DNA of 64,000 nucleotides from the NCBI GenBank assembly GCA_021234155.1, contig JAJEKV010000057.1, positions 3,069,821 through 3,133,820 of the forward strand. The letters are read 5' to 3'. Positions 21,500-62,153 of the stretch are shown in pieces. Under the pieces are notes generated by a model. That model was given only the letters and a program-made list of their open reading frames with translations, searched no databases and had not been told where the DNA came from. The stretch comes from Isoetes taiwanensis. Its lineage: Eukaryota; Streptophyta; Lycopodiopsida; Isoetales; Isoetaceae. A program made the translations under genes and the position numbers. The first letter of the stretch is position 1. Each line of letters opens with the position of its first letter.

Positions 21500-22801
21500 C
21501 TTATGTGCGAGCTCTTACACAGGCAGGTTTCCGGCCCAGCCACTCCACCATTGATCATATCTTCACTCTGCGCACAATTCACTGGCATGCGAGTTAACTT
21601 GGCCAAAACTAGGGTGCTGCTAGTTGCATCATCCCGTCAGCCAAGGCTTCCCTTATTCACTTACCAGGGACAAGAGGTAGAGGTGGCTCCGACCTACAAG
21701 TACTTGGGGATCGAGTTCTCAACTACCACCCATTGGGATGCTGCCATCAGGTTGCGGGTCACGGCGGGTTGAAAAGCACTATATGCCATGCAGAACAACA
21801 GCCACAAGGCAGAGTTGTATGCTGGGGCCACCAGTTACACTTGTTTCGGGCCTTGGTCGAGCCGGTCCTTTTGTATGGGGCAGAAGTGCAGGGTCCGGTG
21901 ATATCCCTCAACACCTGGAATGACCTGGAGCAGGTCCATACCAGATCCTACTCCAGGAGACAGGCTTTCTACCCCTTCAGCAGGCTGCATTGGAATGCCA
22001 TATCGTTTACTTCCAAAAGATGGTCGCTATGGCTGATACACGCTTGCCCCACCTTGCTTTGGCTAGGTGATGGGTTCCCAATGCCTGAAATCCTGCTAGA
22101 AAGACACGCAAGCTCAGTGGTTCTCCCACGGCCGGGTGTGCGGTAAAACAGATACGCCCGTGTCGACAAAGAAAGATTGCGAGGCACTTAAACCGTACCT
22201 AGATGCTACTTTCCTTCGCAAGCTCGGGATGCGAGGCTCGACGATGTTAAGTCGGCACACTATCGCCACAAGTCAATCCTAGGCTCACAAGAGGCCCACA
22301 CCAAAGATTTGTACACCCAAATTGCCCATGAAGAAGCGACTTATAGCTTCCATTCGCCGCGGGTGCACATCGCCCGCATTGAAACGGGCGTTGGGCTCCG
22401 GGAACCATGAGAACAAAGGCTTTGCCAGTGTTGCCACCAGGGCGCGATTGAGGATGAATGTCATACCCTCCAGATCTGCCCAGCGTTTGCCCATATCCGA
22501 GAGCGATATGTTCGATTACTAGTGCCTGGCCAGCCGTTGCATCAGTTATTGACTACAACATCAGTGGGATTGTTGGGGTCATACCTCCAGGAGGTTATAG
22601 ATGCACGGACTCGTTTGTGTCCTACGGGACGGTATTGAACTGCCCTATGCAATTGTACAGTGTGCCAGCATGCTTATTACTGCTAAGGTTTTTCCCTCGA
22701 AAACCCTTCGGGGCGGGGGTTTTTTAATCCTGTCAGTAATACGCTTGCTGCTCTCTTTTTTGTTTGGGTCCCATAGGCCAATTGGTCTCCGTGGACGCTA
22801 A
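21500..22801 (+). mobile_element. LINE 3'-end fragment, copy A
   Basis: The 3' part of a LINE ORF2: reverse-transcriptase thumb-type sequence (GMRVNLAKTRVLLV, YKYLGIEFS, then the LVEPVLLYGAE block), followed by the C-terminal Cys/His region. The frame is broken by stops and indels. The RT palm with the catalytic YADD is absent, so this is a 5'-truncated dead copy. It is the cleanest of three tandem copies and ends in a TTCTATTTTATTC-like tail. Confidence 0.75.
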
Positions 22802-22975
22802 AAATCTATTCTATTTTATTCTAAAAATAAACGTCTGAAACTGCAACAAACCCCAAAAAATAATAAAAAACCCCCTCAACCTTTAAGAGACAGATCAAAA
22901 GATCTTTTGTGGAGCTTATGGAGTAAATTCAACGAGCATGCTATTGTTCTTTGTAAGTTACAGCCTTTACTATTA

Positions 22976-24145
22976 CAAGGCTTCCCACATTCACTTAACA
23001 GGGGCAGGAGGTAGAGGTGGCTCCGACCTACAAGTACTTGGGGATTGAGTTCTCAACTACCACTCATTGGGATGTAGCTATCAGGTTGCCGGTCACGGCG
23101 GGTTGGAAAGCATTGTATGCCATGCAGAACAATAGCCACAAAGCAGAGTTGTATGCCTGGGGCCACCAGTCACATTTGTTTCGGGCCTTGGTTGAGCCGG
23201 TCCTTTTATATGGGGCAGAAGTGTGGGGTCCCGTGATATCCCTCAACACCTGGAATGACCTCGAGCAGGTGCAGAAGGCCTTCTTGGCACGGGCCCACTC
23301 CAGGAGACAGGCTTTCTACCCCTTCAACGGGCTGCATTGGAACGCCATGTCGTTTACTTCCAAAAGGTGGTCGCTATGGCTGATACACGCTTGCCCCACC
23401 TTGCTTTGGCCACGGCGATGGGTCCCCAATGCCCTGAAATCCTGCTTTGGAAAGACAAGCAAGCTCGGTGGTTCTCACTGTGTGCAGGGCAACCGGATAC
23501 GCCCGTCGGGACAAAGAAAGATTGCGAGGCACTTAAACTGTACCTAGATGCTACTTTCCTTCCGCAAGCTCGGGGATGCGAGAGGCTCGGCGCATGTTAA
23601 GGCACACTATCGCCACAAGTCAATCCTAGGCTCACAAGAGGCCCACACCGATACTTGTACACCCAAATGCCCATGAAGAAGCGCGGACTTATAGCTTCCA
23701 TTCGCATGGTGCACATCGCCTCCGCATTGAAACGAGGCGTTGGGCTCCGGAACCCACGAGAACAAAGGCTTTGCCGATGTTGCCACCGGTAGCGATTGAG
23801 GATGAATGTCATACCCTCGGATCGCCCGGCGTTTGCCCATATCCGAGGCGATATGTTCGATTACTAGTGCACGGCCAGCCGTTGCATCGGTTATTGACTA
23901 CAACATCGATTAGGATTGTTGGGGGTCATACCTCCGAGAGGTTATAGATGCACCGGACTCGTTTGTGTCCTACACGGGCCGGTATTGAACCGCCCTATGC
24001 AATTGTGCGGTGTGCGGCATGCTTATTACTTGCTAAGGTTTTCCCTCGAAAACCCTTCGGGCGGGGGTTTTAATCACATCGATAATCGCTTGCTTGCTCT
24101 CTTTTTGTTTGGGTCCCATAGGCCAATTGGTCTCCGTGGACGCTA
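22976..24145 (+). mobile_element. LINE 3'-end fragment, copy B
   Basis: Same region as copy A, starting inside the YKYLGIEFS block. The first half (23017-23440) has a good frame, including LVEPVLLYGAEVWGPVISL. The second half (about 23560-24080) differs from copy A mainly where copy A has CAG or CTG. A 180-bp spacer (22800-22980) recurs at 24145-24330, so copies B and C form a tandem duplication with a period near 1344 bp. Confidence 0.75.
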
Positions 24146-24318
24146 AAAATCTATTCTATTTTATTCTAAAAATAAACGTCAGAAACTGCAACAAACCCCA
24201 AAAAATAATAAAAAACCCCCTCAACCTTTAAGAGACAGATCAAAAGATCTTTTGTGGAGCTTATGGAGTAAATTCAACGAGCATGCTATTGTTCTTTGTA
24301 AGTTCCGGCCTTTACTAT

Positions 24319-25523
24319 TACAAGGCTTCCCACATTCACTTAACAGGGGCAGGAGGTAGAGGTGGCTCCGACCTACAAGTACTTGGGGATTGAGTTCTCA
24401 ACTACCACTCATTGGGATGTAGCTATCAGGTTTGGGGTCACGGCGGGTTGGAAAGCATTGTATGCCATGCGGGAACAAACAGCCACAAAGCGAGTTGTAT
24501 GCACAGGGCCACCAAATCACATTTGTTTCGGCCTTGGTTGAGCGGGTCCTTTTATATGGGGCGGTGTGGGGTCCCGTGATATCCCTCAACACACGAATGA
24601 CCTCGAAGTCGCGGGTTCTTAGCCACGGGCCACGGGGTGAAGGCCTTCTTGGCACGGGCCCACTCCAGGAGACAGGCTTTCTACCCCTTCAACGGGCTGC
24701 ATTGGAACGCCATGTCGCTTACTTCCAAAAAGGTGGTCGCTATGGCTGATACACGCTTGCCCCACCTTGCTTTGGCCCGCGGCGATGGGTCCCAACGCTG
24801 AAATCTGCTGGAAAGACAAGTAAGCTCGGTGGTTCTCACGGGGGGTGTGCAGTAAACAGATACGTCCGTGTCGGGGACAAAGAAAGATTGCGAGGCACTT
24901 AAACCGTACCTAGATGCTACTTTCCTTCGCAAGCTCGGGATGCGCAGGCTCGGCGCGATGTTAAGCCGGCACACTATCGCCAGACAAGTCAATCCTAGGC
25001 TCACAAGAGGCCCACACGATGCTTGTACACCCGGTTTGCCCATGAAGAAGCCGCAGACTTATAGCTTCCATTCGCGCGGGTGCACATCGCCCTCCGCATT
25101 GAAACAGGCGTTGGGCTCGGAACCACGAGAACAAAGGCTTTGCCGATGTTGCCACCGGTAGCGATTGAGGATGAATGTCATAACCTCCAGATCTGCCCAG
25201 CGTTTGCCCATATCCGAGAGCGATATGTTCGATTACTAGTGCCTGGCCAGCCGTTGCATCAGTTATTGACTACAACATCAGTGGGATTGTTGGGGTCATA
25301 CCTCCAGGAGGTTATAGATGCACGGACTCGTTTGTGTCCTACGGGATGGTATTGAACTGCCCTATGCAATTGTACAGTGTGCCAGCATGCTTATTACTGC
25401 TAAGGTTTTTCCCTCGAAAACCCTTCGGGGCGGGGGTTTTTTAATCCTGTCAGTAATACGCTTGCTGCTCTCTTTTTGTTTGGGTTCCATAGGCCAATTG
25501 GTCTCCGTGGATGCTAAAAAACC
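24319..25523 (+). mobile_element. LINE 3'-end fragment, copy C
   Basis: Third tandem copy. Its first part is heavily disrupted in the same CAG/CTG-linked manner as copy B. From about 25080 it becomes clean and reads the LINE C-terminal zinc-knuckle-like segment (EDECHNLQICPAFAHIRERY). It ends at a (TTCTA)n tail at about 25524-25548, typical of LINE 3' ends. Confidence 0.75.
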
Positions 25524-25559
25524 TATTCTATTCTATTCTATTCTATTTGAGATGGGCTA

Positions 25560-28258: not shown

Positions 28259-28841
28259 TCATTCTCTTTGGCGCATCTCCATGATCGGATTGCCAAGGTA
28301 AGATGGTGAGATCACTGGTGAGACCGTTAAGAAGTTTATACACTGACAGAGCGATTGACTACCCAATGCGTTCATGGCACACATGTTGATTGCCAGTTTG
28401 TATTCTCTGACATTATCCCAGATATATGAACGCTTTAGAAATGCCTCTATAATTTGCGCATGCGAAGCTTTAGGAACCACAGGTAGTACTTGTCGAAAAT
28501 CCCCTCCAAATAGCATTGGAATCCCGCCAAACGGGGTCTGCTCATTGCCCGTCACATCTCTTAGTATCCTATCTACTGCCTCAAATATCCATTTGTGCAT
28601 CATTGGCGCCTCATCCCATACAATCAACCGACATGCTCGAATGAGTCTTGCCAATTCTGACTGCCTTGGAATGTTGCAGGTAGACAATTCATGTGCCCCT
28701 ATGGGTGTCTTGAAACGTGAATGAGTCATTCGACCACCTTGCAATAACACTGATACAATGCCAGAAGGTGCAACTGCTAGAGCAATCCAACCCCTTGCAC
28801 GTACATATCCTAGAAGAGTATTATATACAAGTACAAGAAAT
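28259..28841 (-). pseudogene. PIF1-like helicase fragment (Helitron-type)
   Basis: The minus strand encodes about 190 residues of a PIF1-family DNA helicase. It starts near VYNTLLGYVRARGWIALAVA, and has GGRMTHSRFKTPIG, a Walker B-like LIVWDEAPM and motif III GGDFRQVLPVV. The Walker A loop upstream and the C-terminal helicase half are missing. PIF1-like helicase is part of the Helitron Rep-Hel protein and is also a host gene; a lone fragment beside a captured receptor fragment favours a Helitron origin. Confidence 0.75.
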
Positions 28842-35255: not shown

Positions 35256-36901
35256 TGTGACGTTCCAGGGGAATATACGCCATAGATACATATATTTCTG
35301 GACCCGTCACTATACAAGTTTACACTTGTAGCCTTGTATACCTTAGAAGTGGCAAGGGGCACATATCTAAGTTAATTGTTTAACTTAGATAACCTTAGGA
35401 TAAGGCCCATTTCCACATGGCCTTATCCTATTGGGCAACCGCCACACAACCCCATCCTAGTGGTGCCACGTGGCATCCCATGTGGACCCTATCTTATATT
35501 AGTACTAACCCTAACCCTAGACCTCTTTTCCTGACTCTAGCACCTGAACACTCCTCTACGCACTCGAAACCCCGTTTCGAGCATCGTTCGTCGTAGCATA
35601 GCCTGGTGCAGCAGCCCCCGAAGTGTGCGCATGATTGTAGAGGGAGCACGACCTCGACCACATCAAGGAGCAATGGAGACACCAGGAATGGGAGGAAGCG
35701 CTTCTGGGGCAGGTAGGTGGAGTAGAGTTCATAGTGGTTCATCTGGAAGTTAGTACTCCAGATGGGTCTGTGTGTTGTATCTAGAGTAGAGCCATCCTAG
35801 AACCTTTGTTGAACATCTTGAACCCTAATCAAGGAACCCTAACTGTAAGTTAGATATGTATAATTAGGTTAAGATGTTCTTACTATGATTATCATGACTT
35901 GATGTTATGTGATGTTGGGTGATCATGTTTGGTCCTCTTGTATTGGGAAGGGGGGTAGAGACCTAGCAGCCATTATGTAGTATGCTCCTAGTCTAGATCC
36001 CTTAGTTCCTATTAGTTGTGGCCTGTGCATAGGAACCCACCAGGCTATGGAGGCTATGATGTGACTCAGCACTACATAACGGGGCTAGCGGCAATGCGGA
36101 GGGAGGATCCCTGCCGAGTGGGGGCTTCGGGGGATCCCATAGTGGGCTAGACTTATGGTCGGTCACTTCGTGTGGGCCGAGCATGGGTCTGACACCTCCT
36201 GGGGCAATGATGCCGCCCTGCCTCTCAAGAGTTGCAAGTGTCAGCTTGGCTCTTGTTTTGGGGGGTCCAGTCGGGTATGAATCGTGTGTCGCCACGATTC
36301 TCTAGTCGCCCGAGGAGCCTCTAGACCCCGGGAAGGGGAGATGCAACCCTTCCTTCCTCGACGGACCAGGGAGATGCAACCTGGAGTAGTCCCGATGGGT
36401 GATGCCATGGGATTACGTATCCGGAAGGCTAGAGTCATGCCAGAGCTTGGTTGAGCCCATCTGCAAAGTATGCACAGGAGGGGCGGATGGAGTGGTCAAC
36501 CCTAGCCATTGTCTTATGCCAGCCCCGCCATTGTCATGATTCGGTCTTCTCTATCTTGAGGCCTATCCAGTCAGTCGACTTCCATATGAGTCAGAGCCAC
36601 GGTAGGAGCTCTCATGCTTTGTGGCATATGAGTATGTTCTTTGCAGCTATGGATATGTGGATGAGCTACCCTTCGAGGTAGTATGTTGTATTGTCATTGC
36701 TAGTTCTGACGATGTTTGTGCTTTCGCTGTGATAGGAGCCCATAGGGGAAGGGCACGCAAGACACCTTCGTGTTCCCTTCCCGCACTATGATCATCTTAG
36801 AGTGCAGGATAGACAAAGGGCCCGTGCGGTTGAAGGACCAGATGGGGGATTTCCTGCCGGGTATACGGCCGGGCGCCGTATATTTAGCAGGGAGCGTCAC
36901 A
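35256..36901 (+). repeat. Left LTR (1646 bp)
   Basis: Pairs with 60560-62148. It holds a TATA-like ATCTTATATTAG at about 35491 followed by CTAACCCTAACCCTAG (35505-35520), a telo-box-like motif found in some plant promoters. Compared with the right LTR it has extra segments of about 17 bp (near 35435) and about 40 bp (near 36495). Short frames inside it are not genes. Confidence 0.92.
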
Positions 36902-36902
36902 A

Positions 36903-36914
36903 TGGTATCAGAGC
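36903..36914 (+). other. Primer binding site, initiator tRNA-Met type
   Basis: TGGTATCAGAGC lies one base after the left LTR. This 12-mer is complementary to the 3' end of plant initiator tRNA-Met and is the usual PBS of plant LTR retroelements. Confidence 0.93.
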
Positions 36915-37455: not shown

Positions 37456-37487
37456 CCTTACGTCATCCATTTCCTAGACCGTTAAAT

Positions 37488-38609
37488 ATGGCACGCACCA
37501 AGCAGACAGCAAGGAAGTTTGGTGAGAGACCCACACCCCCGATAGCGGCAGCAGCAGCAGCAGGACGCCACGGTAAGCAGATTCCGTCACACCTTCGGCC
37601 ACGGCAGGAGGACGAGGCGCCGTCGTCGTCAGACGACACCTTTCACCCTTCGGAGGAGGGCAGTCCTAGCAGTAGCAGTAGCTCTTCGTCGGCCCAGTCC
37701 CAGCAGACCGGCCAGACAGTTCATGTGGGTGACCTCTCCGGCCGAGAGGAAGAGCAGGACGACGATCAAGAGCAGCAGCACCAGACCCAGGCTCAGGAGC
37801 CAGGCTCCTCTCCACTGAAGAAGAAGGGCAAGAACAAGGTCGCAGAGTGGGCAGAGGAAACGACAACAAGGAAGAGGAAGGAGAGGGAGCAGAGGGAGAA
37901 GGAGCGGCGGACAAAGAGGAGAAATGACAGGCCTCGCGGGACCGTCGTAATTGAAGAATCTCCCCCGCACGAGGTGGAAGGAAGAGGCGAAGAGGAGGAG
38001 GAAGTCCAGGAGGAGGGAGACGAAGTCATTGGGGAATCCTCAGACCCCAACGCACGCCCACCCTACCCGAAGTGGCCCAAGCCACCGAAGGTAGTAAAGA
38101 AGCAGAAGGTGGGTGAGCGGCCATTCGCGCTCCGCGAGGAGCGCCAATTCAAACGCCGCATAAGGGCATACCAAGAGTACCTCCGTCGCTGGACGAGGTA
38201 CAATGACTGGTATTGCAAGCAGAACGTGGAGCGCTACGTCAAAGGCGGCCGGCCGAAGAAGAACCAGCCGAAGCCGCCACCTCCACGTCCGGAGAAGCCG
38301 AAGAAGGTCCACCATGGGCCTAACTCTCGGCACGCCCACGTCTTTCGGGAGATTAGGCACTTTCAACAGTGTACTAATCTCCTGATTAGGAAGGCGCCGT
38401 TTGAGCGCCTGATGCGGGAGGTGATGCAAGAATTCGTGACTGATTACAGGGTAACTTCCTTAACCACACGAGTCTTGCAAGTAGCTGCCGAAGCAGAGCT
38501 GACGCAGCTTTTCGAAGAAGGCAATCTATGTGCCATCCACGCCAAAAGGGTAACTGTCATGCCCAAAGATATCCATTTGGCGCGGAGAATTCGCAAGGAG
38601 TACCCTTGA
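37488..38609 (+). CDS. Retrotransposon-encoded histone H3-like protein with long internal linker
   Basis: An uninterrupted 373-codon ORF; a longer in-frame start exists at 37356, but ATG 37488 has good context and gives an exact H3 N terminus. Residues 1-10 are [10 protein letters not shown], so R2, K4, R8 and K9 positions are kept; S10 is not. Residues about 11-280 are a low-complexity linker: Ser runs, acidic Glu/Asp blocks, Lys/Arg clusters that could be nuclear signals ([19 protein letters not shown]) and Pro-Lys-rich stretches. Residues about 282-373 are an H3 histone fold: [20 protein letters not shown], then loop 1 of canonical length, and [16 protein letters not shown] near the end. 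H3 C110, H113, T118, K122 and D123 equivalents are present, which are the H3-H3 and dyad contacts. K56 is Gln and K79 is Val. Loop 1 lacks the CENH3 insertion, so it derives from a canonical H3 type. GC content is higher than its surroundings. Function is unknown. Confidence 0.9.
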
Positions 38610-39378: not shown

Positions 39379-40893
39379 ATGGCGCCCTCTAACTTCGTCA
39401 GATGGTACGATGCTGCCAATCATATCCGTGAATTTCTTGCTGAACAAGCCTTCCATGTCTTTGACCACCTCTTTGACCTCCATGCAACACTCAGTAGAAC
39501 TCCCTATTACACTGATATCATGTGCCAATATGACCAGCAGGTCCTACCCTGGGAAGTTAGCTTGCTGCCTAGGGGAGGGAAATGGGTATCCCTAGACTCG
39601 CTCCAAACCTTAGGAGGAGGATCCAAAAGCAAGCTGTGGGATAGGACTAGACCCATGCCTGACTACATGACCTGCAAGCATAATAGGCATAGATACCTCT
39701 CAGCCCCTGCAGCCCTAGCTTTGTTCATGCAGTATAAGTCAGTCAACAAGGCAGGAGAGCCCTCAATTCAACCTTTAGATTTAGTATCTCTCGACACTCG
39801 AAGGGAGCAGATCAACATCCACGAGATCCAGTCTTCAGAGTACGAGTACTATGGCCCCACCTCGGGAACACCGACACTGCAGATTGAGCAAGACTACGAG
39901 CAGCAAGGGGAGGAGAACCCAGATTAGAAGAGGAGAGAGGCAAGAAGGATGGAGAGGTGAATAGCTAGGCAAGAAGGCACATTAAGGCGAGATTTTGAAC
40001 CGCCAATCGGCATCACGGCCCTGTCACCAATAATCATCGACGGCGAGGAGTACATCTTGGCCAACGACATCCTCAACCTTCTCTATTGCCAAGAAGAAGG
40101 CCTCAGGATTGATGAGCTCTTAGGCTTAATTGCAAAAGAGCAGGGCAGCGACTTCATCGACTACTCCTACCAGGAAATTCCAAGGGAGCTAGCGGAGTGA
40201 CACTCCTACGCCGGGGAGCCAATGTCGGATATAGAGGCCTATCAGCAGATAAGGGAGATCTATCGGCATCAGGAACCCATCATTCCCGAGGAGGAGTTCC
40301 AGCAGATACAAAGCAGATTGTACAAGCCAGGAAGAGGTCCAAGCTCTAGCCGACCAGTCCGTTCCAGGAGTTCGCGTGAGGCACACGCCAACATCAACTT
40401 GGAGAACGCAACCACAATGTGGAGGGACCATGAAGACCTCCTAGCTCTAGAAACCTATGGGGAAGCAGCTGGTAGAAAAGGCACAGGTTCCAACATCACA
40501 GGGAAGGGCAAGGCGCTTCGATACTATCTTCCAGACCTTAGTCAAGGGCAGATGATAGTATTTCACAAGGAGTTTAGCCCAAGAGGAGAAGAGTCTGTCG
40601 CGCTCCTCGTAGCCCTCTCTGGCTTTGGGCAGCACGCCAAACTAAACTACAGATTGGATCATGTTATCCTCTTCAAGAGATCCGTAGTTCTTCATTGTCT
40701 CGACTTTGCCAGAGGACACCTCAGGGATGCAACGTTGTCAGTAGTGGCGGTGACGGCACCCGAACTCCCAGCGCCTCAGATGGCCAGAGCACTTGAAGGG
40801 GGATCGGCCGGAAAGATCTTGCAGAACGTCGGCAAAGGCCTACGACTCAAGAACGTCAAGGACTTCTTCAAGTCCATGAGGGGGCATCGATGA
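39379..40893 (+). pseudogene. Unknown second retroelement ORF (505 codons, three stops)
   Basis: One frame runs from ATG 39379 to 40893, broken only by in-frame stops at 39925, 39958 and 40198, so the ancestral product was about 500 aa. The N-terminal part has FVRWYDAANHIREFLAEQAF; the middle is acidic; the C-terminal 130 residues look folded (KGKALRYYLPDLSQGQMIVF, then VILFKRSVVLHCLDFARGHL) and end in a basic amphipathic tail. No zinc knuckle, protease, RT or membrane span is visible, and I recognise no family. It could be an extra structural or accessory protein of this element lineage. A decoupled host gene is less likely because it lies between the PBS and gag and has its own TATA box. 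Confidence 0.6.
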
Positions 40894-41215: not shown

Positions 41216-42618
41216 ATGACGGTGGAATCAATCAACGCAAGGCTCACCCAGATGATGAACCAAATGCACCAACTGATTCACTGGGCCACCCCATTGATGA
41301 ATGCCCAAGAATATGCACCTGCACCACCACCTCCTCCACCACTACCTCAGCAAGGCATTGAGGAAGGTCCACAACCAGAAGGGCAAGACAACCAGGGAAA
41401 TGTCAGAGACAGGAAGAGAAAAAGGAGAACCCGAAGGACCCCAACACCATCCAGCTCCAGTGCATCAGACACTTCTGACAGCCAGGACAGTTCTAGCTCA
41501 GACAGCGAGTCCGTTAGATCACAGGTAAGGGCCAGGGCAAAGAAGACAGATGACTATCAGAAGAAAGTGGACATCGCTATGAGCAATGTATGGAAGACTA
41601 GGAAGTTGGGATAGTTCTCAGGGAAAGACAGGTCAGGTATGGAGGCAGAAGCTTGGCTTGACGAGATGGAAGAGTTTGGAAATTCTTATGGCATGAAGGA
41701 CAAATATATAGGGAAAGTTGCTACAGCCAACTTAATAGGAGCAGCTAGAATTTGGTGGAAAGGGTACGCGAAGTCCAATAAGCTGAAAAGGAACAGTTGC
41801 AGATTCAAGACCTTCAGCAAGGCTTTTCGCAAACATTATGTGCCAAGATCACATACTAGCAGGCAGATCCAACAATTCTACAGATTGAACCAGGGTACCT
41901 TGTCAGTAGCAAAGTACACAGAGGAATTCATGCGGCTCAGGCTCCATGTTCCCGGAGTTTCTGAAAGGCAAGTGGTTGAAACCTACATTGAGGGATTGAA
42001 CAGCAACATCAAAAGGCTAGTTCGAGCAATCAACCCAAAGTCAGTGGCAGAAGCCGAGGATAAAGCCATAAGCTTGGAAGAAGCTCCAGCAACTCCAGGT
42101 GAGAAACAGTCGGCCTTCAAGGGTAAATCAACAGGGCAATATCAAGGGCAGTGCCAGAGTAAGCAGTCAGCACCTACGCCATCAGGAGGCCAGCAGCAAG
42201 GAAAAGTTCAGGGTAAGGCCTTTGGGGACTGTAAGCCGCAGAATGCATCAGGGGGCAGTGCGCTAAAGCGTCTTTTAGACAGTCTGCCGAAAGAGAAGAG
42301 ACAGGAGTGTATCGAGAAGAAGCTATGTTTTAGGTGCTTCCAGCCAGGGCACCGAACACATGATTGTCCATTTGTCATGCAGGCAGCTTTGGCAGAGCTT
42401 GGGGATTGGGATTCACCAACAGAGGCAGACGAAGATGACAACCAGCAGGACGGCCAAGACTTCATAGAGGGTGAGTGCCACATATGTGCAAACATTGAGT
42501 CAGGTGATATTGAAAATCAGTCCACAGTCATTGCGGCTGAGGGAATCATAGATAGCAGTCCATATCTAGTGTTGATAGATACAGGTAGCTCTCACAATTG
42601 CCCTAATGAAGAATAAAG
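41216..42618 (+). pseudogene. gag: gag (capsid-nucleocapsid) and start of protease, broken
   Basis: Frame 41216-42618 carries a Pro-rich then Arg/Ser-rich N terminus, a stop (TAG 41612) in the KLG-FSGK junction, then a typical Ty3 retrotransposon gag core: EAWLDEMEEF, WWKGYAKSN, the FRKHYVPRS and LNQGTLSVAKYTEEFMRL blocks. A CCHC zinc knuckle (CFRCFQPGHRTHDC) is at 42326-42367. The protease active site LIDTGSS is at about 42577, after which a frameshift near 42598 ends the frame. gag packages the genomic RNA; this copy cannot give a full product without readthrough or repair. Confidence 0.88.
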
Positions 42619-44410
42619 TCTTGAAGTCTAAGCCAAGGCCAGTTAGCATGGCAAACAGTGCCATTCGGCACACTAAGGGGAGGAGGATCACATTCGACAT
42701 AGACCTTACTGGAAGTAAGTAGCCGATGGGGGCAGAGGTCATGGATATTGGAAGGTATGACCTTATAGTAGGAATGGAGTTCCTAAAGCCAGCGAAAGCC
42801 ATGATCGACTGCGACCATAATGAGATCTCCATGACAGCACCGGACGGCACCAAATTCATAGTGAAAGGTAAGAAGGTAGCTTCTCCCATGCAGTGTATTT
42901 ATTTGAAGCAGCTAAGGAAAAGTATAGAAAGAAATAAGGTGGATTATATCCTGAGGTTAGAAGCAATTGAACCAGCTAAAGAGAAGGGAAGTGACCAAAG
43001 TGGGAATCAGTTGCCCAAGCCAGTAGCAAGGCTCATTAGAGAGTTCAAGGATGTATTCCCAGATGAAATCCGGCAGCTACCACCTTATAGGGGTGTGGAG
43101 TGTGAGATCACACTAGCTCCAGATGCTAAGCCTACCAGCAAGGCACCTTACACCCCGGAGTTGATTGAACTCAAGAAGCAGCTGCAGGAATTGCTTGATC
43201 TTGGATTTATTAGGGCAAGTGTGTCTCCTTTTGGAACGCCCATACTCTTCATGAAGAAGAAGGACGTGAGTTTAAGAATGTGCATAGACTATCGCCAGCT
43301 CAACAAGCAGACGATAAAGAATAAGTATGCTTTGCCAAGGTAGATGATTTGATGGACCAGCTCCAAGGAGCAAAAGTATTCTCTAAGATTGACTTAAGGT
43401 CAGGCTACCATCAAATAAGGATAAAGGAAGAAGATATCCATAAGACCGTCTTCAGAACGCGGTACGGGCACTTTGAGTTTACGGTAATGCCCTTTGGCTT
43501 ATCGAATGCCCCGGCAACTTTCATGCGTCTCATGAACGACATCTTCAGGGAGTTCTTAGATGAGTTTGTTATTGTCTTCTTCGACGACATTCTAATCTAC
43601 AGCAAGTCCATTGAAGATCATTGTCAGCATTTGAGAAGAGTGTTGGAAAAGTTGAGATGGCATCGGTTGTATGGGAAGCTCTCCAAATGCCACTTTGCTA
43701 CCGAAAGAGTGGAGTACTTGGGCCATGTGATATCAGCAGGGATCTCCACCGACCCCGCAAAGATTGAAGCAGTAGTTGATTGGCCAGCTCCAAAGAATGT
43801 GGCGGAAGTGAGAAGCTTTCTAGGTCTGGCAGGATATTATAGGAAGTTCGTGAAGGACTTCGCTAAGTGGGCGTCCCCTTTGACGGACCTCACTAAGAGT
43901 GTTAAGGTGAAAGATTGGAGAACACATTGGCTAGAATATGTCCAAGCTTCATTTGAAAAGCTTAAGGAAGCCTTAACAACAGCACCAGTGCTAGTCCTGC
44001 CGGATCCAAATAAAGACAAGATAGTAGCAACAGATGCAAGTAAGATAGCAACAGGTGGAGTCCTTATGCAAGAAGGAAGAGTAGTAGCCTATGATTCGAA
44101 GAAGTTGAACGACACCGAGCAGCGTTATCCAACCCATGATCAGGAACTTCTAGCTATTGTGAGAGCTCTTCATATTTGGAGGCATTATTTGCTTGGAAGG
44201 AAATTTCAGTTAGATACTGATCACCAGAGCCTCCAATACATCTTTACCCAACCACTCCTCAATCTAAGGCAAAGGAGGTGGATGGAATTCCCTGAAGAGT
44301 ATGATTTCGAGATTGCTTATAAGCCGGGTAAGTTGAATGTGGTTGCTGATGCTCTCTCTAGAAGACCCCTTGAGACGAGAACACATTGTAATGCTATATC
44401 AACTCTTTAG
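42599..44410 (+). pseudogene. pol: pol: protease end, reverse transcriptase and RNase H, broken
   Basis: The protease continues in a second frame to a TAG at 42720. From 42726 RT reads on ([18 protein letters not shown], then [14 protein letters not shown]) to a one-base deletion near 43341, then frame 43349-44410. The RT core has [23 protein letters not shown] and the catalytic FFDDIL (FDD at 43580-43588). RNase H follows: [27 protein letters not shown] and the ADALSRRP end. Motif order and wording are Ty3/Gypsy type. It copies the element RNA into DNA, but this copy has two frameshifts and a stop. Confidence 0.9.
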
Positions 44411-45022
44411 AGTGCAAGAAAATTGAGGAGACATTACCATCTGATGGTGATTTCAAGGAGATATAAGCACGAATTCATTAATTAGAGAAATTTGGAATTC
44501 TCGTTTAGCATGAAATAGGTTAGCGGGTTGCCATATAGTGCAAAAACTACTACCAATTGAGTAAAAGTTGGCGTTTTTTTGCACAAATTCTGCAAATGCT
44601 TCAGTCTTATTCGGAAATATAGTTTTTACTGCTAATGCAAAGGTTCACCGCGAGTATAACGTAGTAGGAGGGAGTGTGAAAACTTCTGCGAAGAAGCGAA
44701 CGCCATGTTTTTCACTGAAAGGAGACGAAAGAATGTGCCTTTTATTAAAACCATATGAGAGCATTGTGTTAAAAGAAGGTACCGAGGAGTTACCACAATC
44801 ACACAAAATTCAGTATTTAAAGCCATGTAATTGCTACAGAGGATCGCGGTCGCGATTATTTTTAGCATTTAACATATGGTAAAAGATATGGGTAAAGACA
44901 AAACCAAAGTTTTCGAAACAAAAGTTTTCATTGAAGGAAGTAATATACAACATAATTACTGATTGAAGGAGATAATTATTCTGATTGTGTTTCAGATACT
45001 TGATCGTGGTATCACACCCATT

Positions 45023-48000
45023 TCATTGGCCATCACGATGGACATGCTCTCTACCCAATTCCATAGCTTGTGTTGTGTCCATCTCCTCGAATAACTGTGA
45101 CCTCACGGAATCAACACCCATGGCGTTTATGATCTTGGCTACCGCAGATGTGAATCGGGGCTCCCATTCTTCATCGTCTCCTTTGACCGCCTCCCGCCTA
45201 TAAGTTCGTTTTTGGTAGCTCCTTGCAGTAGCATTCTGAGGTGGATGATAGAGCTTCTGCTTCTTGCTGTGTACCTGATGCTCCTGTGACCCAAGAACCT
45301 CATCTTGGTCAATGACCATGTGCTGTTGGTCTGCTTCCATGTGCTTTGGGTCTGTTTCCATGTGTTCTATGCAATGTATTCAAACTTATGTTCGCCTGTC
45401 AAGAAAGGCATGTACCCATCAAGCTTCTCATTAAGTGCATGCAATTTTTGGAAAGTGGGCTCCAGGGCTTCTATACCTTTTTCCGTCTCTTCAAGCAAGC
45501 GCTTTGTTTCTTGCATTCTCTTCTTCATTAGGACTTAGCATCGAGGTTTTTCCAAAATGGAACCCAACTTTGATAGATCTGTGTTTTGGGTGATACCGAT
45601 GTCGGGTTGAGCTGGATCGGGGTCAACATTCTCTCGCTTTTCGCTCGTCCTCAAACCCATCTAAGCACTTGGATTGGCCATCTTATCAAAGCGTTTCAAA
45701 GAACGCCCTCGAAACGCGACACACTTTACCCGAACTTTGAAAGCCACGCTCTTTTTGCCTTGCATAAGAGCAACACGGAAGTCGCCCCCAAAAAAAAGAA
45801 ATCCGAACACAACCATCGGTTGGCACCCCACCGCTCAAAGAATATGGTAGGCATAGGAGGTTTTCAGCGGCATTTCAATACAAGATCTCCTTCCATTGCC
45901 GCCCATTTGAATCTTGGTTTTGCACGTAAAGAGTCGATATTTCTTTTTATCTTCTCGTCGGCATCCTCATTACCTGCTAGCGGCATTGGAGGCAATGGTG
46001 TTGACTTAGGAGCCTTGCCGCAGGGATATAGGTGAAGCTCCAACTCACGGTTTGCACAGTGCTACCTAACATCATCACCCCTGTTAATGCACATATGACT
46101 AATAAAGTAATCGATGTTCTTTCACCCTTCTTTTGCTCTCCCATCCCATTTCTTCATAGGAACCTAAAGATAGGTAGCCACCGCCTGAATTTGCTTCCTC
46201 GAAACAAGCAATTGGGCAAATTCACCGAGCGCATGATAATGACCAAGTGATAAACTTTGGCATCCGGCCATGGTAGCTATCCTTGTAAATAGATCTGTGT
46301 ATTTCTTTGCAATCCCATACCTTGTTTATCCCTCGGATGTCAATAAATATCGATTAATCGCATTCTCCGACACTTGGGAGGAAGTAGGGATGCCATCCTT
46401 TGTCACTTTGCTATGACAATATTTTTCTTTTCCTTTCTTTTTCTAGCCTCTTCCGCTTTAGAATATTCCCGATTGGCTCCAAAAGGCTACGGGTGTAGGT
46501 TACCTAGTGTATGATCCTTGTTATAGTTAGCCTTCACGCACTGTATTTTCGATTCCGATATATCCAAATTCTCTGCTCGATTGAAATCAGGAAAAGCCCA
46601 AGCAATTCCTCCCGACTATCGAAATCCTTTTGCAAAGAATTTGAGGCATAAGACAAAATTTCAACCTCATAAAAGTGAGGGTTCTGATGTCAATTGCCCG
46701 TTATGCGCAATCAAATCTCCGCTATAACCTTTGCACCTTTAAATAGGTCTTGCCTTCTATAATCTCATCGAAAAACCGTGACAACTCGCATTCGACATAC
46801 CTCGTAGTAACCGGAGCCAGTGTCTTGTTAAAGAAGTCTTTGGATGGCTTGTCCGGAAACTCACCATGATCGCCACCGAAGTTACGACTCACCCACGCAC
46901 TCCAACTTCCATTAACTTCTTGAAAACCTTCTCATCCATAAAAATGAATTGCTTTTCATCCTTAAGCTCCCGTGACTTTCAAGGTGGTCGTTGCAATTTC
47001 ATGGAAATCCTGCGGAAGCAATTTCAAGGTCATCAAGATCGCGACATGAACTTGGCGAAGTAGAAAACAAATAAATACCTTCCAAGCTGAAGTTTTAGCT
47101 GTCCCTATAGGTCCTTGTGGAGGGCAACCATAAGCCTTGTGCTGATGACGAAGTTGTTGCAGTTTTTCAATCAGTGGCTCTCACAGACACGGTGTTTGCA
47201 ATTACCGTTGCATTGAATACTCAACTCTATATATTCCTTATGCATAATATGTTCAAAGACCCCTCGATCTTCTTCTAGCATATACTTTGGCAAATTCTCG
47301 TTCTTTGCTTTCGAACTTCACCGACGATCGAACAAAGGAGTTGTGCAAAGCACAAATACTGTGGTTGCCGAAAATAATATAAAATTTCTTGCCCTTCAAA
47401 TCTTCCGATTGCTCCATGTCACCCTCCTCCTCGAAAGATAGACAACCCGTCGTCAAATCTACATAACGAGTGTCCAAAAGATAAAGAATTAGTTACCTGG
47501 TAATAGGGTCAAACGGAACGACGTCAGCAGGGGTGAGGACCTCTGTCGGGTATGTCTTGAAGCTTTTAACCAGAGTTTGAACATGGTCATTTGACCGCAT
47601 TCTGTGTGTCAAGTTTGCTGGTGCAGGTTCACAATCAAAAATAGAAATCTTTGTAAACCAATTAACCCCTAAGGGGTAGAACCTTTGAACTGCTCAAGCT
47701 TCGAGTGGTTTGCTCTCGCCATCTTGCGTTCCTCTTCGGATTGAACTTCAACTCGACCGAATGGCAAAATTGGGGCCATGTCAATGCTAGTTTAGAGGAG
47801 GCATTCAGAATCGAGGGGGTTTGAGAACCTATTTGGGCTCATGGCTATCCTCACGAGGTGTCAGATTCTTAAGGCTAATTTTGAAAGGAGGGAATTTTTT
47901 TGGAATAAATCCACCAGATGTATTGCTATCTGGGGCCTTCATAGCAATAGGAAGAGTAGGGTTAACAATACCGGAGGGGTTTATCGTGGATTGTGGTTCT

Positions 48001-48447
48001 TGAGCAATTTCTTTTGGTGCTGAGGTCTCTCCCAAAGTAGCAATAGGCTTCACACTCTTTTTCTTGGCCACGGCTCTTAGCCAATTGGTGTCCATCACGG
48101 AGGGCATCTTCTCGTCCCGAACCGCTTTCAAGGCACAAATGGAGGCTTCTTTGTCCAGAGACAAACCATTTCTGCATGTCGAGAACCCGAGCAATATGTC
48201 TCTGTTTCCCTTTATACCTGACAAAGAGAGAGATTCATAGGATGGCAACAACCAGCCATACCCCTTAGCTGACGTCGGGACGTTTTTCCCTGTGGCTGGC
48301 TTGTTCATTTTGGGCTGTCATCAAAGACGGGTCATAATTGCGCCATTTCAAAATGTACTCCGTGAACCGCAATGCTTGTGGGTCCTCAATGCCGCATATG
48401 ATGGCATCTTGCACATTGTTCTTCGTGCCTTCCCACATTGCCACCAC
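45023..48447 (-). pseudogene. Minus-strand partner gene remnant of the nested transposon
   Basis: Reading down from 48447, protein-like segments appear in changing frames: ALRFTEYILKWRNYDPSLM, GYGWLLPSYESLSLSGIKGN, then LKGKKFYIIFGNHSICALHN (near 47390), FPDKPSKDFFNKTLAPVTTR (near 46850), ENTVREG-like sequence, PRFKWAAMEGDLVLKC (near 45900), and a charged 112-codon C-terminal frame at 45361-45023. The FYIIFGNHSICAL segment recalls the ParB-like xGxHR/NHS motif, which is a weak suggestion only. Frame changes are many, from decay or base-calling error. It points away from the transposase at 50.5-53.5 kb, as in a two-gene transposon. Function unknown. Confidence 0.45.
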
Positions 48448-48799
48448 TATGCCAACTTGTTCAACGCCCTCGCCTTTTTTCCAAATCAGCGGAAACAGTA
48501 ATGTGTCCTTTTGCGATCACCCTTAATGTGCGAGATAGCCCGGGTAATCTCGATACACCATTTCCTTTCATTGGAAGGGGTTATAATCTGGACCGCTCGA
48601 CATCCGGTCCTCTAAGAGAGCAAGTCAAAACAAAAGCTCAGAGAGTGCCCGGTAGGTCGTGCATAATGTGGTGCAATAAAGAGGTTTAAACCATCAGAGA
48701 AACGCGACCGCGATCCCCGCCAAGCGCCTAAAATAGAACTTCACACAACATGGCCACGCGACTTTGTGTAGCACTTAAGCACGGCAAGAAAACATCGCT

Positions 48800-49115
48800 G
48801 TCGCGAAACTAATGACCTACTACACTAGTAATCTTGATGAACATCGCAATAAAGAAAATCTATGCTCAGCCAGCACCACGGTACCAAGCGATCTTGATGA
48901 ACAGCTACACTTATGAAGACCGCTATCCGAAATTATAAAACCAATCAAAGCAAGACCGCGTCACATCTTGATGAGCAACTACACTTATGAAGAACGCTAT
49001 CTAGAAATTATAAAACCTATCAAGCAAGACCGCGACCGCGATCTTGCCGAAAGCATCTATACTTATGAAAACAATAGAAGTTCTAGTAGGCAAGATCGCG
49101 GGCCGCGATCTTTGG
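48800..49115. repeat. Degenerate tandem repeat with GATCGCGGTCGCGATC-type palindromes
   Basis: Three to four units of about 80-90 bp contain ATCTTGATGA(A/G)CA.CTACACTTATGAA and GCAAGACCGCG. Nearby CG palindromes occur at 48703-48715, 49029-49043 and 49094-49110, and the same motif recurs at 44842-44856, 50182-50196 and 50456-50467 inside the nested transposon. Spacers are similar to each other and not unique, so this is not a CRISPR array. Confidence 0.65.
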
Positions 49116-50489
49116 CCGAGCTGAAATGTTAGAAAATACCTTCTCGACGAGAGTCCTTAGGTGCCATGGGATCGCTACCGGGTTCAAGATCTGAAATATG
49201 GGTTTTTTTGGAGTGGGTCTGGGGCTTCGAGGGTCGGGCGCTGGCTGAATGAAAATCGTGGAGTAGAAATTAGTTTTTGAATGTTTTGAGTTTCAATTTA
49301 TAGAACGCGTCAGCGAAATTAAATGCCCGCCCTCATGATGGCGCGAAAAAAACGCGTGCCACCATAATGGCGCCGTCGCCGCGATAATAATTACCGGCGG
49401 CGCGTTTTTATTCCCCCGACATTAATGCCGGGTCGTGCGAATATACCCGTCCTCCGAAAGGCCAAGAACCCGTCACGAAAGGTCTTTATCCACTTAGACG
49501 TCCCGTTCAATTTCGGTCATAATTTCGGACGACACTTTATCCACCATAAATGCCTCCAAAATATCCGGTTTTACGGACGGACAAATAACGCAAAATTTGA
49601 ATTCGAGAACAAACCAATTCAAGAAAGGGGAAAAGCCAATTCAAATTTCATTGTTTTGCAAGATCTTCGAGGCGCTGAGCGCCTAAAAGCCGGGCCAAGT
49701 TTGGGCAAGGATTTGTCGCAGAATTCGCATCCATTGAAGGCGCCGACGATGGCGCTGATAATCCGCTTGCAATCCGCCACTACACACTCTAATTCTGCAA
49801 TCGTGATCAATTCAGGTTTCTCCCGAGGTAAAAGGCCTATTCTCGATGCATATCCCTCACTCAAGTGAATCAGACGATCGGCAATGCAATCAATTTCAAT
49901 TATAACTGCAACCTCCGAAGTCTCCGTGACTAACATTCACTATGTATTGCATGGATTGATAAGATACCTCGATACTTTGTTGCAACTATGTAAAAATAGA
50001 TGTTCTAAGCAAAACTGCACTCGGTGTGTTTATTATACAATGTAAACGTGTTTCAAGTATATACTTTCTTTCTATGTGGATGAAACTAAACACCGCTTTT
50101 ATGACACTAAACACCGTATTACGTGAGGTAGGAGTAATGCCTTATTCTGTAAGTCAATCGTTTAACTTTGGTGCTCCACGAGATCGCGGTCGCGATACCT
50201 TCAACCATCTACACTTGCTATTGACCAAAGAACTCCCGGATATCGATAACTTAGAGTTGAACCCACTAGCTAGCCTCGAAATTTGATTTGCACGAAGTTC
50301 TTATTGAAACAAAATAGTGTGAATGCTTGCAACTAGCGCCGACCGTTCTTACCCATGCTCGATAAGATCGCGCATGGCGAATGTCGTGACCATTTCTTAT
50401 TTTTCAGTTCATATTTTTGTAGTGGTTTATGATCACGCGTTTTTACGCTCACTAGGATCGCGGCCGCTCTATTCACGACCTCTTGTTTG

Positions 50490-53400
50490 GAGGATGGCTG
50501 ATGTAATTCCGCTGTATCTGCTGGGGAAAAAGGTGGCAGAAGGAAGAGTCCACAATTTCGAGCGCCATCACAATTCGACTGTCCCGGAGGGTATGGTTGT
50601 CGTTTCAATTGTGAATGTTCTGGATGGACATTACGCTACCAATTCCTAATTGGAAATAGAAAAAAAAAAAATGGGTGAAGCCGTAGGGACTTTTGTGTTG
50701 TGGTACAAGAAGGACATTGTTGCTCCACTAGATAGACATGAGGAAGCTTGCACCCCACCGTGTCGATAAAAGGATAGACCGGGGTGATGAGGGAATGAGG
50801 GGTTAGCCACTAATGAGACGAATCATGTGCAAGGGCTTTCTAGAGATGAGTTAGTTGAGAAGGCGTGCACACTCATGCATGAATGCTGCTACATGGCTTA
50901 TGCCTATGGTGTTATCATTTTTGCCGATCCAAACCATGTCAGTGGTCGGACGAAGTTAGGGGGAAGGCTCGATAGCTCGCTACTATCATGAACATTTTTC
51001 CAATGCCCGAAAAGATCTCTATCGCCGCCAGCCGGGCACGTAAATGCCCCAACCGCATGACCTTGTGAGATGGCCCATAGCCCTCGTGCTCGTTGATAAC
51101 ATTCCGTTTCTACTCTTGTGGTTGCGGTGAAGGAGAAGGATGTGGAGAATGAACCTTACTCCATTAGACCCGAATTGGCATCACCAAAAAAGAGACCTTA
51201 CAAAGATGGTCAATTGGAGACCCGAACACGCCCAAAGACAGACTAAATGTGAAAGAAAAACTAGTGCCGAGGCTATTCTAGACTTCAGGTCATCAACGTC
51301 TTTGCATGAAACGATGTTTGTGCAAATTTTACATCCCGTGAGATAGCTTGCATGAGAACCTTTTATTGAACATGAAGTCCCTGAGCGCACAACTTTTGCA
51401 TATAACATGCTAGATCTTTGCTCTGAAAATGGTGTAGTCCGCAAACCGATGTTGAATAACAAACGGTGTGCGTGAAAGCATGGCATAAAGCCTATGGCAT
51501 TCCCATTTCCACTTTTACAAGTGGAAGAAGCTCTTCAATGACGGCCACGTAATTGCCGAGCACGCGGAAATACTTGGGTCTAAGAAGCCAAGGTCTCATA
51601 CTTTGGCCGGCAATGTCGCATATCCATGTTCATAGATGAAAACGCAGAGACGATGCCACACCGCTCAAAATTACGAAAGGGAGGGTAATGATAAAATGTT
51701 AAGAGGCTACCTTCGGTCTTGACTAAGAAGGATATACACCAAGAAGTAGATATTTCCGCTACTGAGATGACAGTGCAAGCATATTTCTCCTTCGTCATTT
51801 CGCCCGCTTGGAAAGAGAATCATTCGTGAGGTAGCAATAGCTAAGAGGATAGCATTTTCCAAGTGTAACACCCGTATTGTCATAAAGGAAAAGCTTGCTA
51901 AGACCAGAGATCCAAATGAAAGAAGGGTACTTGCAATAGAGAGAAAAATCACATATGACGCCCAGATTTCATGCGGAGCCTTTTTATCGGTCCCGGAGAG
52001 CTTTGTCGATAGATCTCCCGAGCACGCTTTAACCATTATACATGATAAGATGGATCAGAATAAGACCATGGTCCCTCGCCTAGAGAAGCTAGCAAAGTCT
52101 GTATGGAGGGGTGAACGACTGAAGGTCAGTGTTACAGGTGCTCTCATGCACGGCCATGGTATAGGTGCCTTGGGCCACTTCTCACTGGACCTCTGGCCTG
52201 ATGATTCTAATTTTCATGTGGGATCCTTGAATCATACCTTGAAGACACTGGAGAATAAATCTGAGGATAATTGGGGCCATTTGAGAGATACTGATCGTCC
52301 CGAAAAGCAAAAAAAGTGCAGCAATTTTAAACACAGATAACCTTAGGACAAAAATGATGAATGGCAGTAGAAATGATTTTATGCCTCCTATCAAAGGCCC
52401 CATGGTAGCAAACAAGTTGCCTAGGAGGCTTTACTTGCAGCTAGATAATTGCTCAGTCGAGAATAAGAATAGATATCTTTTCTCTTACTTGTCATACTTG
52501 GTTTGGTTAGGTGTATTTGATCAAGTGCAACTGATTCATGATGGTTGGACACACCCACGATGACATAGATGCCCTATTTGGAAACTACTCTACTCTAATG
52601 AGAAGATCAGATGCATTGACTATTCCGGAGCTTATGCAACTCTTCAGGCAGTGTAGTTCAAAGGCTCCTTCACCTTACCTTGTGACAGAGGTTCCTGATT
52701 GGAAGGAATTCGTGAAAGGATTTATCCCTGATAAGAAGGACCGTTTATGTGGTCACTTGGAACCTCTACTCTTCAAGTTTTGCATGAAGGATGGATGGCC
52801 ACTAATGTTCTACAAGATGAGGCCAGGGCATAGGGAGTGGCTCCCTGAAAAGGGAATCAGAATGTGGAAGGAGGATGCCCAAGGTTTACCTATGATTCCG
52901 AGAGGGTCACCTAAGGTCCTGCAGCCATATGGGAGCTTGAAAGATATAGGTGCATTAAGAGCTTCTATTGCCAAGTACATGATGCACTGGGCAGCTATTT
53001 CTAGAGCTGGCGATAAGTCATGGTCCAACACATATATGAATGAAGTTATTGACTACTGGTCCACCTTGTGCTGCGAAAGTGCTTGGTGACGCAGCCCCAG
53101 AGCTGTCATTCAGATTTCGGCCCAAAGACTGTGCAAAGTGCATTGGAAGAACCCGAAAGAGTGTTTGTGGATGAGCACATTGAAGCATCTCATTACGTAG
53201 GGCCTTTCTGGGTAGACCCAAGAACCCATTGAAATATTCGACCCCTACCAAGATGTCAAGAAGGGAATGCTCTTGCTAATCGGACCACATGATAACCGCC
53301 CGACATGGATGGCTTTTTGCCCGAACAGACCCAAAGAGAGGACCCTAATCTCCCACATTATGAAGAGGTGTTTGTCTCTTGGTTTGAACCTCATTGCGAA

Positions 53401-53555
53401 AGGGAACCTCATATGCAATGCAAAGATAGGGATTGTTGGAGCAAGAATTGGAGACCCAATCCTAATGACCCGCCACGCTACCAACCTTTGAAAACAATAG
53501 ACTATGGTTGGGCCAGAGAGACCAGGCCATTGTCGCTGGTGATCCCCAAGTGTTA
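50490..53555 (+). pseudogene. DUF7869-like transposase remnant
   Basis: The best part is 52430-53089: LYLQLDNCSVENKNRYLFSY, then, after a short indel near 52535, MMVGHTHDDIDALFG. DNC..ENKN and VGHTHDDID are signature motifs of the DUF7869 family, an RNase H-like domain found in many repeated eukaryotic genes and thought to be transposase-related. Upstream pieces (50490-50646, 51120-51560, 52050-52338) look like the N-terminal part, including VKAWHKAYGIPISTF. Downstream, 53305-53555 reads VSWFEPHCEREPHMQCKDRD and is Cys/His-rich. At least three frame changes mark it as dead. Confidence 0.7.
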
Positions 53556-53749
53556 GGTGTTCTCGGGCTTGCAAGAATTAGTGGCTAAAGAAGCTAAGGA
53601 CGATGATGAGAACTCTTGAGGTATGCAATGCTCTTTTACATAATTACTATATCATTCATAACATGAAAGTTACAATAGACTAGTTATTATTTGTTACGCT
53701 CTGCGTTTTCCATCTCAACACAAGAGCTCTTACACTATACAATGCTAAA

Positions 53750-54790
53750 CAGGTGATTCATTCACCTTCAGGATCTGTAGTAGTGATCCCTGATATCTCA
53801 TAGCTCATTCGCCAGAAGCCAAATCGATGGATCATTACACGAATTGACGCAGGGCAACGAATCTCAGCCCAAAGCTTTTCTTCGCAGGTAGGGATCAAGA
53901 AGAAGATGCCCTGCCTAGGCAACCAACAAGATCGAGAGGGCTCATTGAGCACTTGATCGCCTCGATGTGGTGAATTGATGAAGGCAAATAATCCATGTGA
54001 GAGGAATGAACTTTAGCCCCGGGTGAGAAGCTTTTATAGTGAGGTAGAATTATTGAGGTGAATTATTGGGGTAGACTTCTACCCATTATTGCTCGTGTAT
54101 AAGACCGTTGTATAAATACAAGTATAATACATCTTTTTCGTATGGATATATGTATGCGTACTAATATGCATGTTTCAAAACATGTTTGCTTGACGAATTT
54201 AGCTATGATTGAATTCAATGACAACTTTGCGTAATAAGTGGAGGTGGGATAGCACATCGTTACAATATACTCGCTAAGGTAATTGATATTACATCCTTAA
54301 TCGTAATGCTATTACATCCTTACTTAGTTATTAGGTACCCATGTCATTATTACATTATTAGCAGTGTGCATTCACTTTCGCCATCAACATCAAAGCTCGC
54401 GGATGCCATTCAGCCATAGATCTCCGATCGTGAAGCCAAGAAATATGGACTTTAACGCGAGTGAGCTTCCTCGCAAGCACTAGCAGGTCCATCAGCTTTA
54501 GATAAGAGCCATGGATCAAGCTTAACGCTATTTCTAGCACATTCGCCTGCATCGTTGTAGCTCAAGTAACACTTGAAAGAGCGGATGTGCTCGACAAGGC
54601 ATCGAGGAAGCCATGGAAGATGAATGGCCTCTACCCCCTCGTGAAGCCGTTTTTATAGTGAAGTAAAATTATTGAAGTGAATTATTGGCGTACGATGTAG
54701 GGCCATTATTGAGCTTATACGAGTGTCATGTACACGTACAAGTATAACACAAAATTTGTATGTATATGTGTATGTTAATTACCTCATGTT
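53750..54790 (-). repeat. Diverged ~610-bp tandem duplication with a conserved TATA box
   Basis: Block 53755-54170 and block 54358-54780 align over their right parts (for example TTTTATAGTGA(G/A)GTA(G/A)AATTATTGA at 54032 and 54651). On the minus strand each has TATAAAA at the same place (54038-54032 and 54657-54651), about 40-100 nt upstream of short frames such as the 64-codon ATG frame 54552-54358. The promoter-like part is better conserved than the coding-like part. No family recognised. Confidence 0.5.
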
Positions 54791-54840
54791 TGTTGGGGTC
54801 GAGTACTAGGTGAAAGTGTTCGTGCTTGAGCAAATAAGGT

Positions 54841-56345: not shown

Positions 56346-56389
56346 CTTAAGATGTTTCTTAGTTAGCCTTTAGCTCTGGCAGATGTATT

Positions 56390-57075: not shown

Positions 57076-57079
57076 GGAC

Positions 57080-60540: not shown

Positions 60541-60546
60541 TGTCCT

Positions 60547-62148: not shown

Positions 62149-62153
62149 CATTT

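Follow-up and report, generated by a model that had tools for sequence, protein, structure and literature searches.

Can a histone gene be a working part of an LTR retrotransposon, and if so, what would the element do with it? The question arises from 64,000 nucleotides of Isoetes taiwanensis DNA (the window), where an intact open reading frame (ORF) of 373 codons plus stop ends in a histone H3 fold (37488-38609, plus strand). The original prediction had placed this ORF between the primer binding site (PBS) and gag, in the orientation of gag-pol and inside LTRs with matching target duplications. Both points were confirmed: the ORF lies on the gag-pol strand at that place, and paired LTRs with CATTT on both sides enclose it.

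The H3-like ORF and the element around it

The Pfam family Histone (PF00125) matched residues 257-369 of the ORF product (E=7.5e-30), and a sequence search of the PDB placed H3 chains on top (E ~4e-29; best 60 of 182 distinct sequences at E<=1). The core fold is nearer to H3 than to H4, H2A or H2B and can be paired without gaps with residues 46-135 of host H3. The canonical N-terminal tail is represented by its first 10 residues only; about 250 unrelated residues, forming a long, serine-rich linker with charged runs, precede the fold. CENH3 is distinguished by a longer loop 1 and a CENH3-type C-terminus. An origin from CENH3 was rejected, as the protein shows no loop-1 insertion relative to host H3 and its C-terminus is canonical (MPKDI or MPKDL kept). 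Linker residues 186-284 had no match in the protein database at E<=10 (18 candidates). With the full-length query 2866 proteins reached E<=0.001 among 5170 candidates; the best 120 were listed, so that a lone divergent relative could hide below the rows of ordinary H3. Four of the matches were inspected and consisted of repeated ordinary H3 copies or fragments. Two AlphaFold2 models were of low confidence (pLDDT 47 and 56) and were set aside from interpretation.

We infer the start at 37488 because the tail encoded there is H3-like. The reading frame is also open 5′ of this position, with an in-frame ATG at 37356. Seven other ATGs in the interval between LTR and ORF speak against simple scanning to the H3-like ORF.

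The host element is a Ty3/Gypsy chromovirus (Table 1). Its LTRs have the termini TGTGAC...GTCACA, a 5-bp target duplication (CATTT) flanks it, and the PBS TGGTATCAGAGC is one that we take to be of the tRNA-Met type. The domain order is gag, protease, reverse transcriptase (RT), RNase H and, last, integrase, on the same strand as the H3-like ORF. The element is about 27 kb long, of which 10.4 kb is nested DNA. Stops, frame changes and the nested insertion disrupt gag-pol of the window copy; the downstream part of another copy (L077) runs from gag to the start of integrase. The second accessory ORF (ORF2, about 500 aa) had no Pfam match above the cut-off and no match in the protein database at E<=1 (7995 scored). 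Rfam gave 0 matches at the gathering score within the window. The two LTRs differ by a K2P distance of 0.036 (1586 aligned sites, 63 gapped columns). By our own estimate a copy of this divergence could well stay open by chance, and the intactness of the single window ORF was dismissed as proof of selection.

Table 1. Positions of the element's parts and of other features in the window
Feature	Position	Strand	Remark
Plant LRR receptor-like kinase gene	10433..13836		probably with introns
Tandem units, ~1.34 kb each	21642..25540		77-90% alike
PIF1-like helicase ORF	28259..28750	-	E=1.2e-44; perhaps a Helitron remnant
5′ LTR, TG...CA	35256..36901	+	target duplication CATTT just before (35251-35255)
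PBS TGGTATCAGAGC	36903..36914	+	one base past the 5′ LTR
H3-like gene, type A	37488..38609	+	H3 tail (10 residues), linker of ~250 residues, fold at residues about 284-373
ORF2, second pre-gag accessory ORF	39379..40893	+	three in-frame stops here; distant relative in type-B element
gag, into protease DTGS motif	41216..42616	+	Retrotrans_gag E=9.1e-18; one stop; start read from sequence
Protease remainder, reverse transcriptase, RNase H	42579..44410	+	frame changes and a stop
Nested insertion in pol, ~10.4 kb	44465..54894		missing from the L077 copy
DUF7869 ORF in the nested insertion	52538..53089		
Integrase: H2C2 zinc finger, core, SH3-like end	54895..56118	+	two internal stops
Chromodomain at integrase C-terminus	56085..56345	+	PF00385 Chromo E=3.4e-12, window copy only
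Interval between pol and 3′ LTR, ~4.2 kb	56346..60546		may be another insertion
Polypurine tract	60547..60559	+	read from sequence
3′ LTR	60560..62148	+	followed by target duplication CATTT (62149-62153)

Copies and relatives across the genome

The genome (1,658,258,908 bases in 1110 contigs) was searched with the window protein, which defines type A. At least 111 matching rows were obtained from the best 110 of 21,349 candidates, one copy being split into two pieces. By hand count, 65 of the 111 listed rows were free of stops. Identities ranged from 69 to 91%, except for the window itself (100%) and one piece (56%). For 26 of 30 examined copies, the window included, an LTR end and a PBS were present upstream on the same strand when one and two substitutions, respectively, were allowed, and the distance from PBS to start was about 580 bp in most of them. 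Neither was found within the searched flank of L010, L013, L020 and L024.

The RT of the window, used as a second query, gave at least 115 rows (best 115 of 35,847 candidates). H3 and RT were paired when H3 lay 3-12 kb upstream of RT. Such a listed type-A H3 on the same strand was found for 26 of the 115 listed RTs, again counting the window, with the RT 4.6-11.7 kb downstream; 19 of these 26 pairs were spaced at 5.75-5.95 kb, and the median was 5.86 kb. In two more pairs within 12 kb the RT was situated upstream instead. The remaining RT rows had no H3 nearby among the matches listed, an absence that says little. The H3-like ORF is thus a family trait of these elements. It had been considered beforehand that the ORF might be missing from other copies or be a one-off insertion; what we found is its recurrence at the same place and on the same strand, and this common position rules out that host sequence inserted next to, or within, a single element.

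A genome search with canonical H3 returned at least 150 rows (best 150 of 9041 candidates). Fifteen of them (L031-L045), at 97-99% identity to a Closterium H3, were taken as host genes, and below these came a plateau of H3-like folds with 71-87% identity, many of which sit in long open frames. Six loci (L071-L076), chosen by long frames or high identity, were taken with their flanks. Five of them (L071, L073-L076) form type B, with proteins of 409-418 residues that start with MANTK or MAITK and consist of some 310-320 N-terminal residues, different from those of type A, and an H3 fold about 80% identical to host H3. At least 100 rows were found with type B as query (best 100 of 11,493 candidates), 65 of them stop-free by hand count. 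The sixth locus, L072, represents a third kind, type C. Over residues 36-134 its fold shares 87% identity with canonical H3, and gag matches occur on both sides, downstream on the same strand and upstream on the opposite one.

In type A the order is LTR, PBS, the ORF for the H3-fold protein with its long N-terminal extension, ORF2 and gag. The H3-fold ORF likewise follows an LTR end and PBS in type B and in one type-C copy: a PBS match was present upstream in five of the six loci (L074 being without), and a further ORF came after H3. Pieces of type-A ORF2 (L078) matched type-B ORF2 (L075) at 22% (E=4e-10) and 30% identity (E=3e-7), these E-values being those of single-sequence comparisons. In the fetched sequences of L071 and L073-L076 there was no match to gag or RT of the window, and four ORFs of type-B loci were without a Pfam match. 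A small ORF of about 165 aa, EETLWEYEERITDM..., without a Pfam match, follows ORF2 in type-B loci (L073, 5143-5637; L075, 460-957, minus strand).

Genome-wide, the pattern of LTR end plus PBS occurred at 1866 junctions (958 + 908), and the reversed control at 0. From the list, which follows contig order, we took the top 20 sites, hence a non-random sample, with about 2.4 kb downstream of each (the PBS of L055 was cut off). An H3 fold was detected at eight (L051, L054 weakly, L057, L062, L066, L067, L068 and L070). Several of these were decayed, and two (L057 and L062) belong to type B as judged from their matches. At L056 and L061 a relative of the N-terminal part of type B was present but no H3 fold was detected, possibly due to loss or to a form without the fusion. 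Gag followed within 2.4 kb at L052 and L060, and eight of the 20 junctions gave no match in 2.4 kb to any query used. Because only eight of 20 sampled junctions show the fold, the junction is spread more widely than the histone gene, and not every relative carries it.

Selection on the protein and descent of the fold

Selection was measured on the best 30 of 110 type-A copies, with stops masked and undefined or saturated pairs dropped. In the fold, median dN/dS (NG86) was 0.040 over 393 of 435 pairs; the linker gave 0.173 over 435 pairs and the first 12 residues 0.103 over 324. The dS values near 1 are close to saturation and the pairs are non-independent, and the conclusion of constraint does not depend on the exact value. 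The comparison of dN/dS across copies that the original prediction had called for gave strong constraint also under a codon model, with omega at 0.085 for the fold, 0.175 for the linker and about 0.15 overall. Among the 22 copies that retain an exactly matching PBS at its site, the mean difference at codon positions 1, 2 and 3 was 0.119, 0.098 and 0.355. For the type-B fold, dN was 0.000-0.029 against a dS of 0.12-0.71 (10 pairs, 5 copies). The H3-like protein is under strong purifying selection. This shows that the protein matters; it says nothing about where it acts.

In the 740 bp 3′ of the stop the median difference was 0.317, compared with 0.411 at fourfold sites. The leader from the PBS to the H3 start (36903-37487), compared among 22 type-A copies, was rejected as a neutral yardstick: it is oddly conserved, with a median difference (p) of only 0.099, and 3′ flank and fourfold sites are closer together. 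Its conservation reflects either strong constraint or homogenisation by recombination.

The H3 piece could be a functionless passenger, captured from the host and hitch-hiking, or a set of separate host insertions beside elements. Stops in 46 of 111 listed type-A rows and 35 of 100 listed type-B rows (hand count) fit such a view, as do the 12 of 20 sampled junctions without an H3 fold in 2.4 kb. But constraint at the protein level persists at high synonymous divergence, and position and strand are common to the copies. Purifying selection contradicts a passenger pseudogene, and we regard this explanation as barely credible.

The fold tree comprised 42 rows and is unrooted in effect, with bootstrap values that had not settled. 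Type A formed one clade (100/100), all element folds fell on one side of the branch from host and Closterium H3 (95/90), and type C adjoined host H3 (84/35). Types B and C as one clade were not rejected (p-AU 0.70). The tree is compatible with one acquisition of H3 by the element lineage; there may also have been more than one capture, because the tree is in effect unrooted, its bootstrap is unsettled and type C stands beside host H3. That the lineage captured an H3 gene, as originally proposed, is supported by its same place in other copies and by purifying selection.

Possible function and comparison with known systems

For a closer view of the fold, the majority letter of 30 type-A copies was compared with host H3 at residue sets that we take to represent the H3-H3 four-helix bundle, the ASF1 face, the DNA contacts and the H4-pairing core. 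Over 86 residues the type-A fold is about 66% identical to host H3. All eight bundle residues and all six ASF1-face residues are kept, as are 10 of 13 DNA contacts (changed are L65A, F84V and Q85T) and 11 of 17 residues of the H4-pairing core. K79 is replaced by V and K56 by Q. Residues 87-90 read SAVL in 11, TAVL in three and HAVL in one of 15 host copies, LTTR in the type-A copies having them and FAIL in the extracted type-B folds; residues 87 and 90 are essential in plant H3.3 according to passages of PMC3342937. The three changed DNA contacts, the six core changes and the loss of the tail past residue 10 may weaken nucleosome formation by type A.

Because the tetramer interface and the ASF1 face are kept whereas the patch for deposition selectivity is not, we favour the reading that the element carries an H3 variant which would pair with host H4 and act on element cDNA or chromatin, and we hold it to be somewhat more probable than its opposite. 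The H3-like protein (H3L) would be translated from element RNA and pair with host H4. ASF1, the general chaperone for which H3L retains the contact face, would handle it, and it would be carried into the nucleus. There, H3L-H4 tetrasomes or variant nucleosomes would form on element cDNA, on element chromatin or on that of the element's target. The altered 87-90 patch would shift the deposition pathway that handles H3L, and the bulky N-terminal extension would mark H3L particles off from host nucleosomes. The element would probably gain by having its cDNA protected or delivered, or by chromatin resistant to silencing. A more specific version, in which a long-lived LTR lineage maintains a dedicated H3 variant that forms element-specific nucleosome-like particles with host H4 on cDNA or integrated copies via a re-specified chaperone route, is plausible to us but falls a little short of an even chance. 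If it were true, the element would bring part of its own epigenetic state rather than borrow it from the host, and H3L would be, to our knowledge, the first retroelement-encoded histone.

Some giant viruses have histones that compact their DNA. By analogy, H3L could be a nucleocapsid-like structural protein that compacts the reverse transcript in Gag particles, outside host chromatin. It is encoded by the 5′-most large ORF, the usual place of gag, and its linker is rich in charged runs. The kept ASF1 face and H3-H3 interface, however, suit chaperone handling and tetramer assembly more than charge neutralisation, and no source of H4 in the particle is known. We consider such a packaging role unlikely.

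The ARTKQTARK start suggests another role, that of a silencing decoy or tail mimic which would be methylated or read like H3K4/K9 and titrate silencing enzymes or readers, or dock the element's own chromodomain. The first 10 tail residues are exact in 19 of 30 type-A copies, the first 12 residues give a median dN/dS of 0.10 over 324 pairs, and the element does have a chromodomain. We count on the same side that S is never the residue next to K9 in the 26 copies aligned at this position; 21 have F, three A and two Y. On the other hand, the five type-B proteins, with their MANTK or MAITK start, are without the K4/K9 tail, and what all three types share is the fold of H3, not its tail. Moreover, of the three cage aromatics (Y24, W45 and Y48) the chromodomain has the W only, as read by eye from an alignment with CHD1. 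It thus lacks the full set of three aromatics by which passages of PMC3350952 define group I, the methyl-lysine readers, and resembles group II, for which the same passages give the interacting factor as not found. Because one of three cage aromatics is present, direct reading of methylated H3 by the element chromodomain is not supported. The incomplete cage, together with type B lacking the tail, lowered our estimate for a chromodomain reading the element's own H3 tail, and we judge the decoy role as a whole distinctly improbable.

H3L might also act on host chromatin at large: built into nucleosomes of the host, it would serve as a poison or boundary variant, and silencing would relax genome-wide. 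The kept H3-H3 residues, most of the listed DNA-contact residues and the many copies would agree with this, but a broadly toxic histone would presumably be costly to a host with so many copies, and we give such interference a very low probability. The preferred reading remains an H3 variant acting with host H4 on the element's own cDNA or chromatin. Few host proteins are as conserved as histones, and it is through marks on histones that LTR elements are silenced. An H3 of the element's own, kept over long divergence, is a natural test of direct chromatin control by mobile elements; it tests which H3 faces suffice for function and what rewriting the deposition patch at 87-90 allows. The Gypsy expansion in Isoetes, described in passages of PMC10541799, may be connected with it as well.

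In the titles, abstracts and passages of the open-licence full-text literature, we found no LTR retrotransposon with a histone gene. The word histone is missing from the giant-transposon review (PMC6431247) and from the main texts of the genome papers on I. taiwanensis (PMC8566536) and I. sinensis. The giant Gypsy elements of Phalaenopsis with AlkB/2-ODD (PMC9289625) are likewise large plant Gypsy elements, of 25 kb, that gained an extra ORF, but according to passages of that paper this ORF is an RNA demethylase, not a histone. The same paper screened 121 angiosperm genomes; its section 12, in which extra domains are described, names no histone, and the word lycophyte is missing from its text.

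Chromoviruses of non-seed plants (Tcn1-like, Galahad, SM-Diluvium and others in Selaginella) share with the Isoetes element the TG..CA LTRs, 5-bp duplication, tRNA-Met-type PBS, the order protease, RT, RNase H and integrase, and a chromodomain, as described in passages of PMC3350952 and PMC2864245, the former also giving the tRNA-Met PBS of the Selaginella elements. The Isoetes element differs by its two extra pre-gag ORFs, the first H3-like; these passages describe no such ORF.

The nearest precedent is the hAT element of Pyrenophora tritici-repentis with H3L (PMC3538342), also a mobile element with an H3-like gene in many copies. In passages of that paper it is a cut-and-paste DNA transposon of a fungus, with near-identical copies (10 long and 16 short in the reference), whereas the Isoetes element is an LTR element of a plant with diverged lineages, long N-terminal extensions and measured purifying selection. 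An identity of the Pyrenophora hAT type was rejected for the Isoetes element: a search of the 64-kb window for inverted repeats at least 100 nt long found none, and direct LTRs and a Ty3 gag-pol are present instead. Compared with the canonical H3 of its host, the element H3 has in common the complete fold, the H3-H3 interface and the ASF1 face, but most of the tail is replaced by some 250-320 unrelated residues and the 87-90 patch is changed.
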